Below, piece after piece: positions 8,375-24,735 of a stretch of DNA of 27,706 nucleotides. Made by a program: the position numbers and the translations under genes. The stretch covers positions 1 through 27,706 of the IMG/VR virus record IMGVR_UViG_3300029448_000326. One strand, 5' to 3'. Each line of letters opens with the position of its first letter. Position 1 is the stretch's first letter. The notes under the pieces are model-generated. The model ran no database searches, had not been told where the DNA came from, and saw only the letters and a program-made list of their open reading frames with translations. Source of the stretch: a virus.

Positions 8375-8794
8375 ATGTTATCTAAATTATTAGGCGGATC
8401 TCTAGTGGACACTGTCGGAAAAGTAATCGATAGCGTCCACACTTCCGAAGAAGAAAAACTTAACGCAAGAAACAAACTCAAAGAACTAGAAAACGAAATA
8501 AATTCTAAACAGATGGACATCAATTTAGCTGATGCTAAGTCCACTGCTGTTGGTTTTGGTGGTATGATGCAAAGAAGTTGGAGGCCTCTCATCGGGATGA
8601 GTTGTGCCCTAGCAATATTGTGGGAGTACGTATTAAAACAGTTTATTATGTTTATACTTGCAGCATTTAGTGTAGAACACGATCCTTTGCCTGCCCTTGA
8701 CATGGCCGTTTTGATGCCACTTGTGCTTTCATTATTAGGAATGGCGGGAATTCGCAGCTTCGATAAGCTTAAAAAAACTAATTCAGATAAATAA
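8375..8794 (+). CDS. Holin, three-TM gene-transfer-agent type
   Basis: Holins form lesions in the inner membrane at a programmed time. This 139-residue protein fits the 'holin of 3TMs for gene-transfer release' family: an N-terminal amphipathic, charged helix (EEEKLNARNKLKELENEINSKQ, 25-46), then the signature GGMMQRSWRPLIGMSCA (62-78), and three hydrophobic segments at about 71-85, 86-99 and 109-126. The family was first described from alphaproteobacterial gene transfer agents, which agrees with an alphaproteobacterial host. It follows a 31-residue membrane peptide after three bases. No endolysin follows it. Confidence 0.85.
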   Translation: MLSKLLGGSLVDTVGKVIDSVHTSEEEKLNARNKLKELENEINSKQMDINLADAKSTAVGFGGMMQRSWRPLIGMSCALAILWEYVLKQFIMFILAAFSVEHDPLPALDMAVLMPLVLSLLGMAGIRSFDKLKKTNSDK

Positions 8795-13730: not shown

Positions 13731-14005
13731 TGGCAGACAAACAGCCACCAAAAACTAAAAAATATTTCCGCTCCACAAAAAGTGGGGCGGGAATGACTAA
13801 AGCAGGTGTTAAAAAATACCGAGCAGACAACCCTGGTTCTAAATTAAAAACAGCAGTTACAGGTAAAGTTAAACCTGGTAGTAAAGACGCTAAAAGAAGA
13901 AAATCTTTCTGCGCTAGAAGTGCAGGACAAATGAAAAAGTTTCCAAAAGCAGCTAAAGATCCTAACTCAAGGTTAAGACAGGCAAGAAAGAGATGGAGAT
14001 GTTAG
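13730..14005 (+). CDS. DUF6321-like basic phage protein
   Basis: I use the ATG at 13730 that overlaps the previous stop; an earlier start at 13715 only adds five codons inside the upstream gene. The 91 residues are strongly basic: KKYFRSTKSGAGMTKAGVKKYR at 10-31, NPGSKLKTAVTGKVKPGS at 34-51, and RRKSFCARSAGQM at 56-68, ending RQARKRWRC. The RRKSFCARSxGQ box and overall order match a short protein family (DUF6321, from memory) found across cyanophages and other marine phages. The function is unknown; the charge suggests DNA or RNA binding. Confidence 0.7.
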   Translation: MADKQPPKTKKYFRSTKSGAGMTKAGVKKYRADNPGSKLKTAVTGKVKPGSKDAKRRKSFCARSAGQMKKFPKAAKDPNSRLRQARKRWRC

Positions 14006-14550
14006 TGAAGCAACTTGCAATTATACTATTGTTATTCACAACTGTAGCTATCGTTACAGATTCTTCAGCAAATACAAACACCGTGTCGTCAACTGTTTTA
14101 AACAATGCGCCTGCTACAGCGAATGCACCGACCGTCCTCAACTCAAATTCTGATATTTGCAAAATCGGAATTGGTGGAAGTGTGCAAAATAATATTTTAG
14201 GCGTAGCTACAGGTTACGTTATCACGGACGAATTTTGTGAGCGTGTTCGCACAAGTCGTGCATTATATTCCTACGGCATGAAGGTGGCTGCAGTGAGTTT
14301 GCTTTGTCAAGATCCAAGAGTTCATGATTCAATGCAAAACGCAGGAACTCCATGCCCGGTCAATGGCTTAATTGGAGCCGAAGCAGCAACCTATTGGGAA
14401 GAAAATCCAGAAAAAATTCCAAAGGGTTCTCAATACAGAGAAGACTATATACAAGTAAGACAACAAGAAACAAAGGAGTTTAGTGATGCTAGTTCTATTG
14501 CACTTTATAAGGCTTTGTTCCTTATTACTACTGGTCTCCTCTTATTCTAA
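13993..14550 (+). CDS. Exported four-Cys protein
   Basis: The 185-residue product overlaps the previous gene by 13 bases. Residues 1-26 are a signal-peptide-like hydrophobic segment (MLVKQLAIILLLFTTVAIVTDSSA), so the mature part should be periplasmic or membrane-tethered. A Thr/Asn/Ala linker follows, then a domain with four Cys in DICKIG, EFCERV, LLCQDPRV and TPCPVNG, which could make two disulfides in the periplasm. The GMKVAAVSLLCQDPRVHDSM stretch is recalled from cyanophage proteins of unknown function. Its last 65 bases encode the signal sequence of the next gene in another frame. Met3 at 13999 is an alternative start. Confidence 0.6.
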   Translation: MEMLVKQLAIILLLFTTVAIVTDSSANTNTVSSTVLNNAPATANAPTVLNSNSDICKIGIGGSVQNNILGVATGYVITDEFCERVRTSRALYSYGMKVAAVSLLCQDPRVHDSMQNAGTPCPVNGLIGAEAATYWEENPEKIPKGSQYREDYIQVRQQETKEFSDASSIALYKALFLITTGLLLF

Positions 14551-16177
14551 AGCAGACTGCTTACCTAATACTGAAGGACTCTGTACTCCTGGTGTAACCA
14601 TCACGGAAGATACACAAATTGACATTACTGAAGAAGATCTTGGTACAGAAATTGTTACAACTACTGTAACCACAGAGACTACAACAACCACTACTGTAAC
14701 TAATGAAAACTCAGATAATATACTTGATGGCACAAACGGATATGTGAGCACAAGTAATGAAGGAGACATGGATATTGATTGGGGTGGCCAAGGTCCTGCT
14801 AGTATGCCAACAGGTAATGCTTGTTATGGATTAGGTTCTGATAAATGTGCACAAATCACAGGTAGTGGTAATAGCACTTCGACAATGGGTGTTGATGGCA
14901 TGGGCACGACATTTATACAGACTGTTGATTTCTCTGAGTTGAATATTAGTAATGGTGGTGAAGTTAAATACTCTATAGAGGTAGACAAACAGGATGATCA
15001 AGATCGAATATACATGCACATTACAGGACTTAATGGAACTAGTCAGGTCTTTTCAGGTACTGACATCTTGTCTGAAACTGGAGTATCAACAGGATATCAA
15101 TCATATAATGGGTCTTTCGATTTCAGTGGTGTATTAAATAAAGTTACTATTGAGATAGGTGGTAGAGATATTAATCTAGCTGTGGGTCCTGTCTTTGATG
15201 ATGTGAGTGTGGACGTATTTTATAATGTAATTAACACAATTATTACTCAACAAATAACTACAGTAGAAGAAATATATTATCTCAATCTTTTAGATACAGA
15301 GATTAACTTTGCAGAGGAAGTCTTTGAATTTAATGACATAGCTACCAACGATATTGGTGAGATAGAGTTTATGCCTTTTGAACCTGAGTATGAAGAAGTA
15401 ACCTATGAGTCTGTTGAAATTGAAATGGCAGAAATAGAATTAGAGTTTGAATATGTAGAAATTTCTTATGATGTCACTTTTGATGCTCCTCCTCCAATGG
15501 AGTTATTACCCCCACCTGATATGAATATGGACTTTGAAATACCTGTAAATATAGAAACCGTCACATTAGAGATTGAAATGGAAATGGATTTACCTCCACC
15601 AGATATGGTAGCTTCAGTAGAAGAGATAGCACCCCCAATTGAAGTAGAACCTGAGATAGTAGAAACAGAAGTAGAAGAAATTAAACCACAAATTGAAGAA
15701 GTTCAGGAGGAGCCTGAGATTATTGAACCTGAGCCTGAGAAAACTGTCGAAGAAGCACCTGAAGAGGTAGAAGAAATCGAAGAGGTAGAAGAAGTAAAAG
15801 AACCTGAAGAAGAAGCCCCTGAAGAAATAGAAGAAGCTGAAGAGGAGGTAAAAGAGGAGCCTAAAAAAGAAGAAAAGAAGGAAGAACCAAAGAAGGAGCC
15901 TAAGAAAGAATCTTCAGCAAAAGAAAAAGCAGCAAGTAAAATAGTAAAAAAGATTGACGATAAAGCTAGATATGATGATGCAGCTCAAACTAAAACTTTA
16001 ATTGTTATGCAGATTCTTGGTAATACAAAATCATTCTTCGATACACAGTCTTACATCCAAGATACAAACGTTACAGAATATTTAAACAAGACAATAGATG
16101 ATCAGTATGGTATGTTGTTTGACATGGCACAAGGACAGATAATGGATGATATGGTGAACTCACAATGGCAGAAGTAG
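14486..16177 (+). CDS. Exported beta-domain protein with long acidic then basic linker
   Basis: I start at ATG 14486 (AGGAG 7 nt upstream) rather than the GTG before it, giving 563 residues. Residues 1-24 form a Sec-type signal peptide with a Cys right after it (SYSKADC). A Thr-rich spacer (50-75) leads to a beta-rich domain (about 80-265) containing TGNACYGLGSDKCAQITG, a possible disulfide hairpin. Residues about 270-480 form a very long Glu/Pro/Val-rich then Lys-rich segment (repeated EEVEE, EPEPEK, PKKEEKKEEP), like a TonB-type periplasm-spanning linker. A compact C-terminal domain of about 75 residues follows. The function is unknown. The architecture suggests something that spans or anchors in the cell envelope; a virion fibre is the alternative. 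Confidence 0.6.
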   Translation: MLVLLHFIRLCSLLLLVSSYSKADCLPNTEGLCTPGVTITEDTQIDITEEDLGTEIVTTTVTTETTTTTTVTNENSDNILDGTNGYVSTSNEGDMDIDWGGQGPASMPTGNACYGLGSDKCAQITGSGNSTSTMGVDGMGTTFIQTVDFSELNISNGGEVKYSIEVDKQDDQDRIYMHITGLNGTSQVFSGTDILSETGVSTGYQSYNGSFDFSGVLNKVTIEIGGRDINLAVGPVFDDVSVDVFYNVINTIITQQITTVEEIYYLNLLDTEINFAEEVFEFNDIATNDIGEIEFMPFEPEYEEVTYESVEIEMAEIELEFEYVEISYDVTFDAPPPMELLPPPDMNMDFEIPVNIETVTLEIEMEMDLPPPDMVASVEEIAPPIEVEPEIVETEVEEIKPQIEEVQEEPEIIEPEPEKTVEEAPEEVEEIEEVEEVKEPEEEAPEEIEEAEEEVKEEPKKEEKKEEPKKEPKKESSAKEKAASKIVKKIDDKARYDDAAQTKTLIVMQILGNTKSFFDTQSYIQDTNVTEYLNKTIDDQYGMLFDMAQGQIMDDMVNSQWQK

Positions 16178-16680
16178 CAATAGGTGGCGTATCTTTTCGT
16201 GGTGGTCGCATGATGGCAGTCATCCTAGCATTAAGTAGTGCTGTAGGAGTTTTGTATGGTGGGTTCGAAGCTTTCAAAAAATTTCAAGATATGTCAGAAA
16301 AAATTGAGGCCTATACTGCCCCTGATTTAAGTGGGTTTGATAAGAAGATTGCTCTTGTAGAAACACAAACAGAAGCACAAATAGAGCTAGTATCACAACA
16401 ATTAGATGCTTTGAAAAGCGAATTAGAAATTATATTAGGTGAAATAGACCTAATAAGTCAGGTAAGTCGGGAACTTAAAGACGACCTTAAAACGGATTTA
16501 CGCAACGTTGAGCAAGACGTACGACACATAACCGAAATTGTGAATGACGTAGAAGATAGACAAAAAGAAGACTCAAGAGAGCTTATAGAAGAGATGAAGT
16601 TAATGGAAGAAAGCCTTGACTTGAAGATTAATAAGGCTTTAAATAACCCTTTAAGTGGAATGTCCGCAAAAACAAAATAG
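16165..16680 (+). CDS. Membrane-anchored coiled-coil protein
   Basis: The 171-residue product overlaps the upstream gene by 13 bases, with GGTGA as ribosome site. A short N-terminus (MAEVAIGGVSFRGGR) leads to one transmembrane segment (MMAVILALSSAVGVLYGGF, about 16-34), then AYTAPDLSGFDKKIAL and a long coiled coil from about 60 to 160. The topology (one span, long helix) resembles inner-membrane spanins or phage envelope tethers, but the YTAPDLSGFD box is specific to a marine-phage family of unknown role. It probably works with the two exported products encoded upstream. Confidence 0.6.
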   Translation: MAEVAIGGVSFRGGRMMAVILALSSAVGVLYGGFEAFKKFQDMSEKIEAYTAPDLSGFDKKIALVETQTEAQIELVSQQLDALKSELEIILGEIDLISQVSRELKDDLKTDLRNVEQDVRHITEIVNDVEDRQKEDSRELIEEMKLMEESLDLKINKALNNPLSGMSAKTK

Positions 16681-16689
16681 GAGTATGTC

Positions 16690-16737
16690 ATGTGTGATTG
16701 TAAAACAGATCAGGATTGTCAATGTCGTTTAAGATAG
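16690..16737 (+). CDS. 15-residue Cys micropeptide (CxC-x5-CxC)
   Basis: ATG with a proper AGGAG 6 nt upstream opens MCDCKTDQDCQCRLR, then TAG inside the next gene (overlap 16 bases). Four of 15 residues are Cys, at 2, 4, 10 and 12. A second micropeptide at 17117-17182 has Cys at exactly the same four positions. The pattern could bind one metal ion (zinc or iron) or react with thiols. It could instead be a translational leader for the next gene. The dedicated ribosome site and the conserved spacing argue for a real product. Confidence 0.55.
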   Translation: MCDCKTDQDCQCRLR

Positions 16738-16952
16738 AGTTAAAAACAGTTCTACCCTATTTGGTGCTATTGGCGACACTCGCAATGACGTGGGGAATGT
16801 GGAGCGAACGCTTAAATGCAGTTGAGAAAAAGGCAGATAGTGTTGCAGAAATGCAACAAGATCTAGCTGTTATAAAAGCACAACTAAAGTCTATGGATGA
16901 AAAAATGGATTGGATGGAAGGCTTTTTAATAAAGAATTATAGTGAATTTTAA
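16722..16952 (+). CDS. Short one-span membrane protein with coiled coil
   Basis: The ATG at 16722 (AGGA 6 nt upstream) is preferred over a TTG two codons earlier. The 76-residue product has one membrane segment (VLPYLVLLATLAMTWGMW, about 9-26), then a charged helix with heptads (RLNAVEKKADSVAEMQQDLAVIKAQLKSMDEKMDWMEGFL). This is a miniature of the 16165 product. It might be an inner-membrane spanin partner, antiholin or hetero-oligomer partner. It ends with a TAATG overlap with the next gene. Confidence 0.6.
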   Translation: MSFKIELKTVLPYLVLLATLAMTWGMWSERLNAVEKKADSVAEMQQDLAVIKAQLKSMDEKMDWMEGFLIKNYSEF

Positions 16953-17116
16953 TGGTGATTAGTAGATCACAAATGCAAAAAGAAGTATCTACAGGAGGTA
17001 GAAAAATGAATAAAAAATTAAAACCAATACCACCAAAAAATAAAGGTCTTAAAAAATTACCTAAAAAGGTAAGAAACAAAATGGGATTTAAGAAAAAAGG
17101 TGGAATGGTAAAATAG
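16952..17116 (+). CDS. 54-residue basic peptide ending KKKGGMVK
   Basis: Starts at the A of the previous stop (TAATG). The sequence opens MVISRSQMQKEVSTGGRK and continues with a Lys/Pro-rich run ending MGFKKKGGMVK. The ISRSQM-V-S-TGG opening followed by a Lys-rich tail with a GGM motif is, as I recall, a recurrent small protein in marine phages. Compare the KKGGM and KKRGGGMM motifs at 18263. The function is unknown; the charge suggests DNA condensation or binding inside the head. It is immediately followed by the second Cys micropeptide. Confidence 0.6.
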   Translation: MVISRSQMQKEVSTGGRKMNKKLKPIPPKNKGLKKLPKKVRNKMGFKKKGGMVK

Positions 17117-17182
17117 ATGTGTAAATGTAACGAAGAATACGTTTGTGTGTGTGGTTTAGAAACAGAGGACGATAATGGGTAA
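17117..17182 (+). CDS. 21-residue Cys micropeptide (CxC-x5-CxC)
   Basis: The ATG abuts the preceding TAG with no gap. The product MCKCNEEYVCVCGLETEDDNG carries Cys at 2, 4, 10 and 12, the same as the peptide at 16690, but the loop and tail residues differ and the tail is acidic. It overlaps the next gene by eight bases. Its ribosome site would lie in the GGTGG of the previous gene's end. Metal binding or a regulatory leader role are the possibilities. Confidence 0.5.
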   Translation: MCKCNEEYVCVCGLETEDDNG

Positions 17183-17444
17183 ATTATGCGCAAAGGGAAA
17201 AGCCGCCGCTAAGCGTAAATTTAAAGTCTATCCTAGTGCCTATGCAAATATGTATGCGGGCGCTGTTTGTTCTGGAAAAGTAACCCCAGGGGGTAAAAAG
17301 AAACCAAAGAAAAAAGCTGATGGTGGTATGATTAATAAAGTTTCTCAAGAAAGAAAAATGGTATCTAGTTTTGGTCAAGGTGGCGTTGCTAAGGGTTGTG
17401 GTGGCGTTATGGAGAATAGAAGAAAAGTTACAGCAAAAACCTAA
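17175..17444 (+). CDS. Basic phage protein of the KxKVYPSAYAN type
   Basis: The 89-residue product has LCAKGKAAAKRKFKVYPSAY as its N-terminal core (4-23), ANMYAGAVCSGKVTPGG following, then a Lys-rich run with ADGGMINK and a Gly-rich GQGGVAKGCGGVM. The FKVYPSAYAN motif with a nearby Cys pair is widespread in cyanophage and other marine phage small proteins of unknown function, often encoded near DUF5872 and DUF6321 genes as here. It starts inside the preceding micropeptide gene and ends in a TAATG overlap with the next. A DNA-binding or virion-internal role is inferred from charge. Confidence 0.65.
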   Translation: MGKLCAKGKAAAKRKFKVYPSAYANMYAGAVCSGKVTPGGKKKPKKKADGGMINKVSQERKMVSSFGQGGVAKGCGGVMENRRKVTAKT

Positions 17445-17719
17445 TGGCTAAAAAAGGACTTAGATCTTGGGTAAAAGAAAATTGGGTAGACATAGCCAAT
17501 AAAAAATCTGATGGGTCTTATCCTAAATGTGGACGTAGTGGTAAAGAAAAAAGAAAAAATTATCCTAAATGTGTCCCAGCCGCAAAAGCAGCCTCTATGT
17601 CTAAAGGTCAAAAAAGATCTGCTGTTAGTAGAAAACAAAAAGCTGGTAATCCAGGTGGTAAACCCACTATGGTAAAAACAATTGTCAAGAAAAAAACAAG
17701 CAGAAAAAATAAAACTTGA
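17444..17719 (+). CDS. DUF5872-like basic phage protein
   Basis: A 91-residue product starting at a TAATG overlap. The order GLRSWVKENWVDIANKK (5-21), DGSYPKCGRSG (23-33), NYPKCVPAAKAASMSKGQK (39-57) matches the short domain known as DUF5872, with its two conserved Cys (29 and 43) and a C-terminal Lys/Arg tail. The domain is found in marine phages and in some eukaryote/giant-virus proteins; its function is not established. The last 38 bases overlap the start of the next gene in another frame. Confidence 0.7.
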   Translation: MAKKGLRSWVKENWVDIANKKSDGSYPKCGRSGKEKRKNYPKCVPAAKAASMSKGQKRSAVSRKQKAGNPGGKPTMVKTIVKKKTSRKNKT

Positions 17720-18266
17720 TGTAATAAATTGGTCCAAGAATGTCTTGGAACCAATGAACAAACACATAGGTTTTCCTGCGTGTCCTTTTGCAGCTAAATG
17801 GAGAAAAGATAATAAATTAAGAATTGAAGTTCGTATGGATAAATCTAAATACGAAAAACAATTAACTTCTGTTCTAAAATCTTGGAATAAAAAACAACAC
17901 GATATAATAATATTTTGTGATCCTTATTGGGAACAATATGATGGTCAAAAATTTCAAGATAAGATAGATTTTTATAACAAAACATATAATCGTAAAGATG
18001 TCTATTTTATGGGTTTTCATCCTTCTTCTCCAGCAGATCCTGAAGAACAAGAGTTTTTAGTGGATCCTACTAATGAACCTGTAGAACATGGTGATTTAGA
18101 ATATTCAATGATGTTAGTACAAAAGTTTAAACAACTGTATGATGCAAGTTGCAAACTACATAAGATAGGCTATTATAAGAAATGGCCTAAGCAATACTAC
18201 GATGAAGTAGTAGCTGAAAGGCAAAATACGTACGAAAAACTTTTTAAAAAAGGAGTAAAATCATGA
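17682..18266 (+). CDS. Possible distant DUF1415-like protein
   Basis: The frame opens with TTG at 17682, overlapping the previous gene by 38 bases. The first ATG is only at codon 25, and homologous-looking sequence (VINWSKNVLEPMNKHIGFPACPFA) begins before it, so TTG or another upstream non-ATG start is likely. In 194 residues I see CPFA (about 34-37), HDIIIFCDPYWEQYD, FMGFHPSSPAD and DLEYSMMLVQKFKQL. DUF1415 proteins have the same order (CPFA, an acidic strand, FHP, then a PMLHLLRE-type helix). The match is from memory and weak. The function of that family is also unknown. It ends in an ATGA overlap with the next gene. Confidence 0.55.
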   Translation: MSRKKQAEKIKLDVINWSKNVLEPMNKHIGFPACPFAAKWRKDNKLRIEVRMDKSKYEKQLTSVLKSWNKKQHDIIIFCDPYWEQYDGQKFQDKIDFYNKTYNRKDVYFMGFHPSSPADPEEQEFLVDPTNEPVEHGDLEYSMMLVQKFKQLYDASCKLHKIGYYKKWPKQYYDEVVAERQNTYEKLFKKGVKS

Positions 18267-18409
18267 TGGCAAAAAAGAAACAAGTAATGAAAAAAGGTGG
18301 CATGGCCAAGAAGCGTGGTGGTGGAATGATGATGAAAAAACGTGGTGGTGGAATGGCAAAAAAGAAACAAGTTGCCAAGAAGCGTGGCGGCGGAATGATG
18401 AAGAAGTAA
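18263..18409 (+). CDS. 48-residue Lys/Gly/Met repeat peptide
   Basis: AGGAG 7 nt upstream and an ATGA overlap support the start. The product uses only M, A, K, Q, V, G and R, arranged as repeats: KKGGMA, KKRGGGMMM, KKRGGGMA, KKRGGGMMKK. Several repeats use CGT, GGC and GCC codons, unlike the A/T-ending codons around it, and the DNA itself is repetitive. It cannot fold into a normal domain. It is probably a nucleic-acid-binding or membrane/DNA-contact peptide, and could also be packaged in the head. The same GGM motif closes the 16952 gene product. Confidence 0.6.
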   Translation: MMAKKKQVMKKGGMAKKRGGGMMMKKRGGGMAKKKQVAKKRGGGMMKK

Positions 18410-21620: not shown

Positions 21621-22709
21621 ATGGCAAGTACATATTCAGACAGACTTAAATTAGAAATAATGGCCACAGGCGCCAATGCCAATACATGGGGTACAAATAC
21701 TAATAACAATTTAGAAGTTATAGACGCTTTTGCAGCAGGTTTTTTATCTAAATCAGTTGCAGGTTCAGCGAATATAACACTTTCAACAGCTAATGCATCA
21801 GACACTGCGGAATCTTCCAATAAAACAATTGATTTAAATGGTGCTCTTACAGGCGATATCGTTGTGTTTATTCCAGCAGTAGAAAGCGAATATAACTTTT
21901 TTAATAACACTTCTGGATCTCAAACTTTAACTATCGCAGCAACAGGTCATACAGCAAATGGTGTTGTTATTACTCAAGGTGCAAAGACAACAGTATTTTG
22001 TGATGGTGCATCAAATTATAATGTAGAGATTATTTCATCCACAGACGCAGGAGCGCTAGGAGCTGGAACTTTACCAGACGCTAGATTCCCTGCAACTTTA
22101 CCCGCAGCTTCAGGTGTAAATTTAACTGCACTGAATGCATCTAACTTAGGATCAGGAACAGTTCCTAACGCTCGTCTAGATGCACAACTTCAAGACGTTG
22201 CAGGTTTAGCTGTTACAGATAGTGGTATTATTGTAGGTGATGGTTCAAACTTTGTTTTAGAAACAGGAGCAACTATGAGAACCTCTTTAGGACTAGGAAC
22301 TGGTTCTGATGTACAATTTGATTCTTTTGGTGTTGCAACAGCAGCATCAGGAACAAGTGGAGAAATTAGAGCTACAAATGATATTACTGCTTTTTATTCC
22401 TCAGACGTTTCTTTAAAAGAAAATATTCACAACATATCTTCCCCTATGGATAAAGTACAAAATTTAAATGGAGTTTTATTTGATTGGAAACAATCCTTTA
22501 TTGATTCCAAAGGTGGAGAAGATGGCTATTTTGTTCGTAGAACAGATGTAGGTGTTATCGCTCAAGATGTTGAAAAAGTTTTACCAGAGGTCGTAGGCAC
22601 AAGACCTGACGGAGTTAAAGCCGTTAAATATGATCGTCTATGTGCTCTACTAATCGAATGTGTAAAGGACTTACAAACTCAGGTTAACGATCTTAAGAAA
22701 GGAAATTAA
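21621..22709 (+). CDS. Tail fibre with C-terminal S74 chaperone domain
   Basis: The 362-residue product opens STYSDRLKLEIMATGANANTWGTNTNNNLEVID (2-34), a usual start of marine phage fibres. It then has a beta-rich shaft (40-140), GAGTLPDARFPATLP and LGSGTVPNARL repeats (150-190), and DGSNFVLETGATMRTSLGLG. Residues 261-355 are the S74 intramolecular chaperone: SDVSLKENI with the Ser261/Lys266 catalytic pair, FDWK, GVIAQDVEKVLPEVV, and a terminal YDRLCALLIECVKDLQTQVNDLK helix. S74 domains trimerise the fibre and then cut themselves off. GAGAGG precedes the ATG. Likely host-receptor binding. Confidence 0.85.
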   Translation: MASTYSDRLKLEIMATGANANTWGTNTNNNLEVIDAFAAGFLSKSVAGSANITLSTANASDTAESSNKTIDLNGALTGDIVVFIPAVESEYNFFNNTSGSQTLTIAATGHTANGVVITQGAKTTVFCDGASNYNVEIISSTDAGALGAGTLPDARFPATLPAASGVNLTALNASNLGSGTVPNARLDAQLQDVAGLAVTDSGIIVGDGSNFVLETGATMRTSLGLGTGSDVQFDSFGVATAASGTSGEIRATNDITAFYSSDVSLKENIHNISSPMDKVQNLNGVLFDWKQSFIDSKGGEDGYFVRRTDVGVIAQDVEKVLPEVVGTRPDGVKAVKYDRLCALLIECVKDLQTQVNDLKKGN

Positions 22710-24111: not shown

Positions 24112-24735
24112 ATGCAAGACATCGATCCTAACGATTTAAAAGAATATTACTTTGATGAAATAACCTTAATGGGGGCATGGTACATGCCTGAAGAAATTTG
24201 TGATAAACTTTTATCTTATTTTAAATTTAATAAAGAATATCAAGTTCAAGGAGAGTGTAAAGTTGGCACAATAAAAGCACCAGAAATACGTTCGGATATA
24301 AAATTAAGCACTGACTTAGCAATTTCACCAGGAAATTTTGATGGTCACGTAGGACTTTATAAACACTACTTAAACTCCATCTTAGATAAATATCTAAAAA
24401 AATATCCTCACGCAGATCAACAATATTTTTTTAGAATGAATGAATCAATGAACATTCAATATTATAAGCCTAAGGAAGGATTTTTTAAGTATCATTTTGA
24501 GTCAAATGGAACAGGCGTTAATGGATGGAATAGAAACTTAGTTTTTATGACATACTTAAATGATGTTCCTGATGGTGGAACAGAATTTAAATATCAAAAA
24601 ATAAAAACCGAAGCAAAAAAAGGACTAACTTTAATATGGCCTGCTTATTGGACCCATACTCACAGAGGTATGGTTAGTGAACTTAACTCAAAATATATAG
24701 TCACAGGTTGGTATAGTTTTAATAAAGGAGAATAA
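24112..24735 (+). CDS. 2OG-Fe(II) oxygenase, prolyl-hydroxylase-like
   Basis: The 207-residue product has a double-stranded beta-helix core at about 105-203: MNIQYYKPKEGFFKYHFESN, with His128 and Glu130 in place of the usual HxD, then NLVFMTYLNDVPDGGTEFKYQ, KGLTLIWPAYWTHTHRG with a distal His (182 or 184), and SKYIVTGWYSF where Lys194 could hold 2-oxoglutarate. This is the prolyl-4-hydroxylase-like pattern seen in many marine phages. The substrate is unknown; it may modify a virion protein, DNA or host glycan. It is linked by TAATG to a second oxygenase gene. Confidence 0.8.
   Translation: MQDIDPNDLKEYYFDEITLMGAWYMPEEICDKLLSYFKFNKEYQVQGECKVGTIKAPEIRSDIKLSTDLAISPGNFDGHVGLYKHYLNSILDKYLKKYPHADQQYFFRMNESMNIQYYKPKEGFFKYHFESNGTGVNGWNRNLVFMTYLNDVPDGGTEFKYQKIKTEAKKGLTLIWPAYWTHTHRGMVSELNSKYIVTGWYSFNKGE

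Follow-up and report, generated by a model that had tools for sequence, protein, structure and literature searches.

Two micro-ORFs in the 27.7 kb IMG/VR virus record analysed here (its whole length is referred to as the window) are probably translated late genes of an HTVC023P-like pelagiphage and, judged by their sequences, probably belong to a new family of metallothionein-like phage peptides that are predicted to bind metal. Micropeptide A (MCDCKTDQDCQCRLR; 15 aa; KTD type) is encoded on the + strand at 16690–16737, in a position denoted slot A, and micropeptide B (MCKCNEEYVCVCGLETEDDNG; 21 aa; NEDY type) on the + strand at 17117–17182, in slot B, with its ATG immediately after the stop codon of the upstream gene. 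As the first-pass annotation had pointed out, both translations have Cys at positions 2, 4, 10 and 12, giving an identical CxC-x5-CxC spacing. When the corresponding pattern, ATG-TGY-N3-TGY-N15-TGY-N3-TGY, was searched on both strands of the window, micropeptides A and B were the only two matches, whereas 100 dinucleotide shuffles of the window gave a mean of 0.01 and none of the 100 reached two, in agreement with the earlier judgement that such a pair is unlikely by chance. The four Cys make up 19–27% of these peptides of 15–21 aa. Both the micropeptides and the long forms described below are small and Cys-rich, with the Cys arranged in CxC/CxxC clusters, the features by which metallothioneins are recognized.

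Micropeptide A has its own ribosome site, an AGGAG at 16679–16683 (+), which had been described as a good one; it is at normal spacing and is kept in nearly all slot-A relatives. Micropeptide B follows the upstream stop directly in a TAG|ATG junction, and is therefore probably translationally coupled to the upstream gene. Both ORFs overlap the following gene, as had also been noticed: the ATG of the next gene is at 16722 inside A and at 17175 inside B, and the associated ribosome sites are an AGGA at 16712–16715 (+), inside codons 8–9 of A, and a GAGGA at 17165–17169 (+), inside the tail of B. The micropeptide coding sequence at 16712–16724 and 17165–17177 thus includes both the ribosome site and the start codon of the next gene. 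In micropeptide A, the TG of the Cys12 codon is also the TG of the next ATG, and codons 8 and 9 (xxG GAT) form the Shine–Dalgarno sequence of that gene, so that Cys12 and D9 of A do not constitute independent evidence. The acidic tail of B (ETEDDNG) encodes the GAGGA and the ATG of its next gene. Because the tails of A and B encode these signals, they reveal little about peptide function, and the common core consists of residues 1–12/13.

Slot A is located between the gene for a 171-aa protein (16165–16680, +) with a hydrophobic helix and a coiled-coil-like sequence and that for a 76-aa protein (16722–16952, +) with an N-terminal hydrophobic helix followed by a coiled-coil-like sequence, the ATG of which overlaps the Cys12 codon of A. 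In genomes without A, these two genes overlap directly. Slot B follows the gene for a 54-aa basic protein (MVISRSQM...; 16952–17116, +) and precedes that for an 89-aa basic protein (phrog_27331; 17175–17444, +), which has no assigned function and no hydrophobic segment. A third position, slot C, is empty in the window; in relatives, MCECCEDYDCICK occupies it, directly preceding the gene for a 185-aa protein with an N-terminal hydrophobic segment (13993–14550, +). The window also contains a group of small, very basic proteins (16952–17116, 17175–17719 and 18263–18409), two of them with conserved Cys, which are possibly DNA-binding or virion proteins. A 2OG-Fe(II) oxygenase (PF13640), a known HTVC023P-type accessory gene that often adjoins ferrochelatase, is encoded at 24112–24735.

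By its terminase and common gene order, we assign the window genome to the HTVC023P-type pelagiphages. The terminase is 59–62% identical to those of HTVC023P, HTVC027P and 023Pt_psg01, and up to 30 of the window genes are present in relatives of 57–59 kb. HTVC023P and HTVC027P were isolated on HTCC1062, a strain of SAR11, the most abundant bacteria in the ocean, and we therefore infer from the terminase similarity that the host is SAR11/Pelagibacter. Pelagibacter has few detoxification genes (PMC4161860).

Loci in HTVC023P-like pelagiphage contigs were gathered through the gene for a 194-aa protein located 500–1000 bases downstream, that is, without selecting on the peptide. (An alignment-based locus search, which lacked a conserved stretch to work with, had no yield.) Slot A was defined as the position between the 171-aa and 76-aa genes, and slot B as that before the 89-aa phrog_27331 gene. 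Among 37 distinct slot-A sequences, 22 had a four-Cys peptide, two had a three-Cys version (MCSCNGECILGK) and 13 had no ORF; in the latter, the flanking genes overlap by a few bases, leaving no room for a peptide. All 24 of the distinct sequences with a gap at slot A contained a Cys micropeptide, and anything that occupies this slot is therefore a Cys peptide. At slot B, a Cys-rich ORF was present in 44 of 46 distinct sequences, starting immediately after, or overlapping, the preceding stop. The two slots vary independently among the relatives. Direct DNA pattern searches in IMG/VR found the KTD type of slot A in at least 119 contigs and the NEDY/CCED type of slots B and C in at least 73, and together with the neighbour-anchored loci these substantiate the earlier suggestion of a peptide family; the KTD pattern had no match in GTDB genomes. 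Near-complete relatives of 52–59 kb have only one or two such Cys-rich sense ORFs each, and one of the relatives (G001) carries the A and B pair found in the window, with no further ORF of this type.

The micropeptides are under purifying selection, which is clearest at slot B. Across the 13 distinct DNA sequences of the short form found at slot B in the neighbour-anchored set, synonymous sites had reached saturation (pS 0.85), while pN was 0.07. The Cys codons alternate between TGT and TGC, so that Cys is conserved in relatives through synonymous change, and K3, N5, E6 and Y8 are invariant while pS is ≈0.8. The two observations that the first-pass annotation had named as refuting its proposal, absence of the pattern from these loci in other genomes and loss of the Cys codons in relatives, were thus both looked for and not made. 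The slot-B core does not overlap the signals of the next gene. At slot A, pS and pN were 0.30 and 0.14 in the neighbour-anchored set (17 sequences) and 0.33 and 0.10 over all loci, with replacements mostly at the x positions 3, 8 and 11. Selection at slot A is partly confounded: throughout the KTD group, the third base of codon 8 is G and that of codon 11 is A, because these codons contribute to the Shine–Dalgarno sequence and start codon of the next gene, the TG of that start codon being part of Cys12. In one slot-A variant (MCECCEDYSCICKK), the next gene starts after Cys12, and Cys12 is still Cys. Values of pN/pS from pattern-selected sequences are not used as primary evidence.

The same peptide type precedes at least five different downstream genes, counting slot B and including split and fused double forms. 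Besides the 185-aa gene at slot C, MCECCEDYDCICK precedes another helix/coiled-coil gene with two different N-termini, and a sister peptide, MCECCEDYDCVCKP, is encoded upstream of the 76-aa gene. A more distantly related phage has MCECCEDYNCICKGKKNV with a second, overlapping micro-ORF, MCDFCSGECICR, behind it; both are upstream of one gene, whose product has no hydrophobic segment and, in our reading, may resemble virion-morphogenesis proteins. Fused forms of 28 aa also exist (MCKCNEDYDCICKGKTMCEYCGGECICR). The conserved unit is the peptide, not any particular downstream gene, and the two ORFs in the window are not an isolated pair, but part of a larger family with independently varying slots. 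Across the relatives, these short genes encode 13 to 23 amino acids and are unannotated. ORFs of 42–72 bases are below the usual limits of gene callers. Genes in the HTVC023P-type genome study were predicted with Prodigal.

At slot B, the short form is replaced in about half of the members by proteins of 36–59 residues with 6, 9, 13 or 14 Cys. The 6-Cys version (MCHCALNTSCMCEC, MCHCALNTSCMCECPRC) has Cys at exactly positions 2, 4, 10 and 12, as in the micropeptides. The long forms as a whole have 28–67 aa and 6–14 Cys (mostly 9–14), with the core CxxC[GD]CxCHCx3-5CxCECxxCxH. At least 120 contigs contain them, the majority from the same phage group, and 99 of the 114 new long-form loci carry window genes; long forms also occur downstream of a homologue of the window gene at 8375. 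That short and long forms are homologous is suggested by the slot that they occupy, by their spacing and by forms of intermediate length, with no significant alignment between them. The micropeptides look like pared-down versions, or minimal units, of larger Cys-rich, probably metal-binding phage proteins that occupy the same position in sister phages.

Cys density by itself was rejected as evidence, since ORFs with nine Cys also arise on the antisense strand of a conserved gene. Such an ORF is found in the window at 21633–21481 on the − strand, antisense to a 327-aa gene, with a similar one in another genome (G003), and is probably an artefact of the codons of the sense gene. The long-core pattern had 35 matches in GTDB, which we read as chance (not every one was examined; most translations lacked a start codon or fell within long frames of unrelated sequence), except for one contig filed as a Rhodobiaceae MAG (L401; PAHC01000028.1). 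This contig carries eight homologues of window genes and is therefore a phage contig in a bacterial bin. No cellular homologue with the long core was found in GTDB.

Metal binding is the best supported of the functions considered. The functional part would be the 12–13-residue core MCxC-x5-CxC, with the tails mainly providing the next gene with its ribosome site and start. The four thiolates form two CxC pairs separated by a loop of constant length, five residues, and most likely bind one tetrahedrally coordinated divalent ion resembling Zn(II) or Fe(II) or, alternatively, a small Cu(I) cluster, possibly common to two peptides. The phage would thereby buffer or sequester a thiophilic metal in late infection, much as a metallothionein does; the Cys spacing shared with fungal Cu-metallothioneins and the few detoxification genes of Pelagibacter speak for this. 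Metallothioneins usually have more than four Cys, however, and four thiols bind little metal per chain, which counts against the metal reading.

The first-pass annotation had also proposed Cys-sensing leader peptides that control the downstream genes. A nascent Cys peptide might sense the cysteine supply or a metal on the ribosome and thereby tune translation of the overlapping next gene; consistent with this, the 3′ end of each short form coincides with, or lies close to, the point where the following gene begins, the ribosome sites of that gene at slots A and B are embedded in the micro-ORFs, and Cys codons 2 and 4 could stall the ribosome early. However, the pattern of conservation speaks against the proposal: non-Cys residues (KTD, NEDY) are conserved against varying synonymous sites, strongly at slot B, where the four invariant non-Cys residues show that selection is not on Cys codons alone. 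Furthermore, an attenuator would have a terminator or sequestering hairpin between leader and gene, but no terminator-like site was found nearby on the + strand, and the RNA folding z-scores (+0.36 and −1.60) were not clearly better than those of shuffles. The downstream genes differ, many genomes have no ORF before the same gene, and the family includes long proteins, many of them terminating upstream of the gene that follows. We consider it unlikely that the peptides act as a co-translational sensor or leader; the sensing of a metal on the ribosome is a minor possibility.

The annotation had left open whether the family was metal-binding or redox. The family is real and conserved, and its sequences make metal binding plausible, while a redox function is improbable. 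CxC pairs are known redox-active motifs, and here they could cycle between dithiol and disulfide, either folding or regulating the adjoining membrane or secreted phage proteins, or buffering oxidants; the products of several downstream genes do have N-terminal hydrophobic segments, most with a coiled-coil-like remainder. However, four Cys with a fixed x5 loop, and the long versions with 9–14 Cys and conserved His, better suit metal sites, and the basic 89-aa protein encoded next to slot B lacks a hydrophobic segment. A structural role is less probable still. The peptide would then bind the neighbouring membrane/coiled-coil or virion protein and assist assembly or lysis by clamping it through a Zn-thiolate site or a disulfide, as might be suggested by its co-location with small helix/coiled-coil genes and by cultured pelagiviruses that encode, near lysis genes, a membrane-type helix ending in a CxC-x5-CxC tail; against this, the same peptide type is found before different genes, including those for the basic protein at slot B and the virion-morphogenesis-like protein without a hydrophobic segment, and slots A and B vary independently. 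That the ORFs are filler that carries ribosomes between genes and yields an inert peptide is very improbable: the TAG|ATG and ATGA overlaps and the embedded ribosome sites would fit, but Cys and other residues are under purifying selection at slot B, genomes without a slot-A ORF simply overlap the two genes, and a high Cys content in every case would not be expected of an inert linker.

The putative metal-binding family was not recognized in existing collections, in line with the earlier remark that no such phage family was known. The long forms had no match in Pfam, PHROG or NCBIfam, and the single micropeptide scanned, from slot B, had none in Pfam and PHROGs, so that no curated metallothionein family was matched by the long forms in Pfam and NCBIfam or by the slot-B peptide in Pfam and PHROGs. 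Sequence and fold searches of the PDB gave no match, and an AlphaFold model of one long form, of moderate confidence (pLDDT 70), had no PDB relative. A tblastn search of cultured phages with the 9- and 13-Cys proteins found no match, although low-complexity masking may hide matches. In the open-access literature searched, which excludes most subscription journals, no paper was found on metallothionein in pelagiphages, phage metallothionein or such pelagiphage peptides, and neither cysteine nor zinc is mentioned in the principal genome paper on HTVC023P-type phages.

Metal binding by these peptides would define a minimal metal site of 12–13 residues and suggest phage management of zinc, copper or iron in SAR11 cells. 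In sharing one locus, the long and short forms also make a natural series for the growth or shrinkage of a Cys-rich protein. A wider proposal, which we advance tentatively, is that marine phages possess modular, ribosomally synthesized thiolate peptides, some as short as 13 residues, that bind metal. Such units could be placed between late genes that otherwise overlap, duplicated, joined into larger proteins of the metallothionein type, or trimmed back. If true, they would rank with the smallest gene-encoded metallothioneins and add a new class to the auxiliary functions of phages in oceans poor in metals.

Among known systems, the bacterial metallothioneins SmtA and BmtA are resembled by the 9-Cys long forms, which pair nine Cys with conserved His. 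SmtA has a Cys/His count of the same 9-Cys-plus-His kind. The phage long forms differ in having no Pfam metallothionein match, a different Cys order and no GTDB cellular homologue with the core pattern. The Cu-metallothioneins of Neurospora crassa and Agaricus bisporus have the pattern X2-CXC-X5-CXC-X3-CXC-X2-C (PMC4755600). These fungal proteins (26 aa, 7 Cys) are also very short, and their Cys arrangement begins with precisely CxC-x5-CxC, which makes up its first half. In contrast, the micropeptides are phage-encoded, have 13–23 aa and four Cys rather than seven, are similar in Cys spacing only, and bind metal only putatively; they have the first two CXC units of the full 7-Cys pattern, and the 6-Cys form continues differently. 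The match to the fungal proteins is most likely convergence.

Cys attenuators and metal-sensing upstream ORFs of bacteria are likewise short, Cys-rich ORFs that overlap or precede a gene, but the phage peptides have conserved non-Cys residues, several downstream genes, long versions and no terminator. As small phage proteins, they share very small genes that annotation often overlooks with those reviewed by Beggs and Bassler (2024; PMC11323111), a review that does not mention cysteine, zinc or metal. The nearest likeness in cultured pelagiviruses is to HTVC021P gp54 and HTVC121P gp52, which have a C-terminal CxC-x5-CxC (CKCKDKGKCQC) or CxC-x3-CxC, but are fused to an amphipathic or membrane-type helix, Lys-rich, near lysis genes in a relative, and otherwise dissimilar. 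These short helix proteins (L251:601-723, HTVC021P gp54; L425:701-823, HTVC048P, not annotated; L255:601-720, HTVC121P gp52) have a C-terminal tail that is either a Lys run or a Cys version, CKCKDKGKCQC (CxC-x5-CxC) or CKCKGKCKC. In a relative, the short helix protein with the Lys/Cys tail is located one gene beyond the lysozyme gene. Two further proteins, L081:415-612 (HTVC106P gp36) and L249:8784-9179 (HTVC023P, frame not annotated), consist of a helix, a KKRKNK stretch and a Cys-rich tail with a CHC core that resembles the long Cys-rich family.
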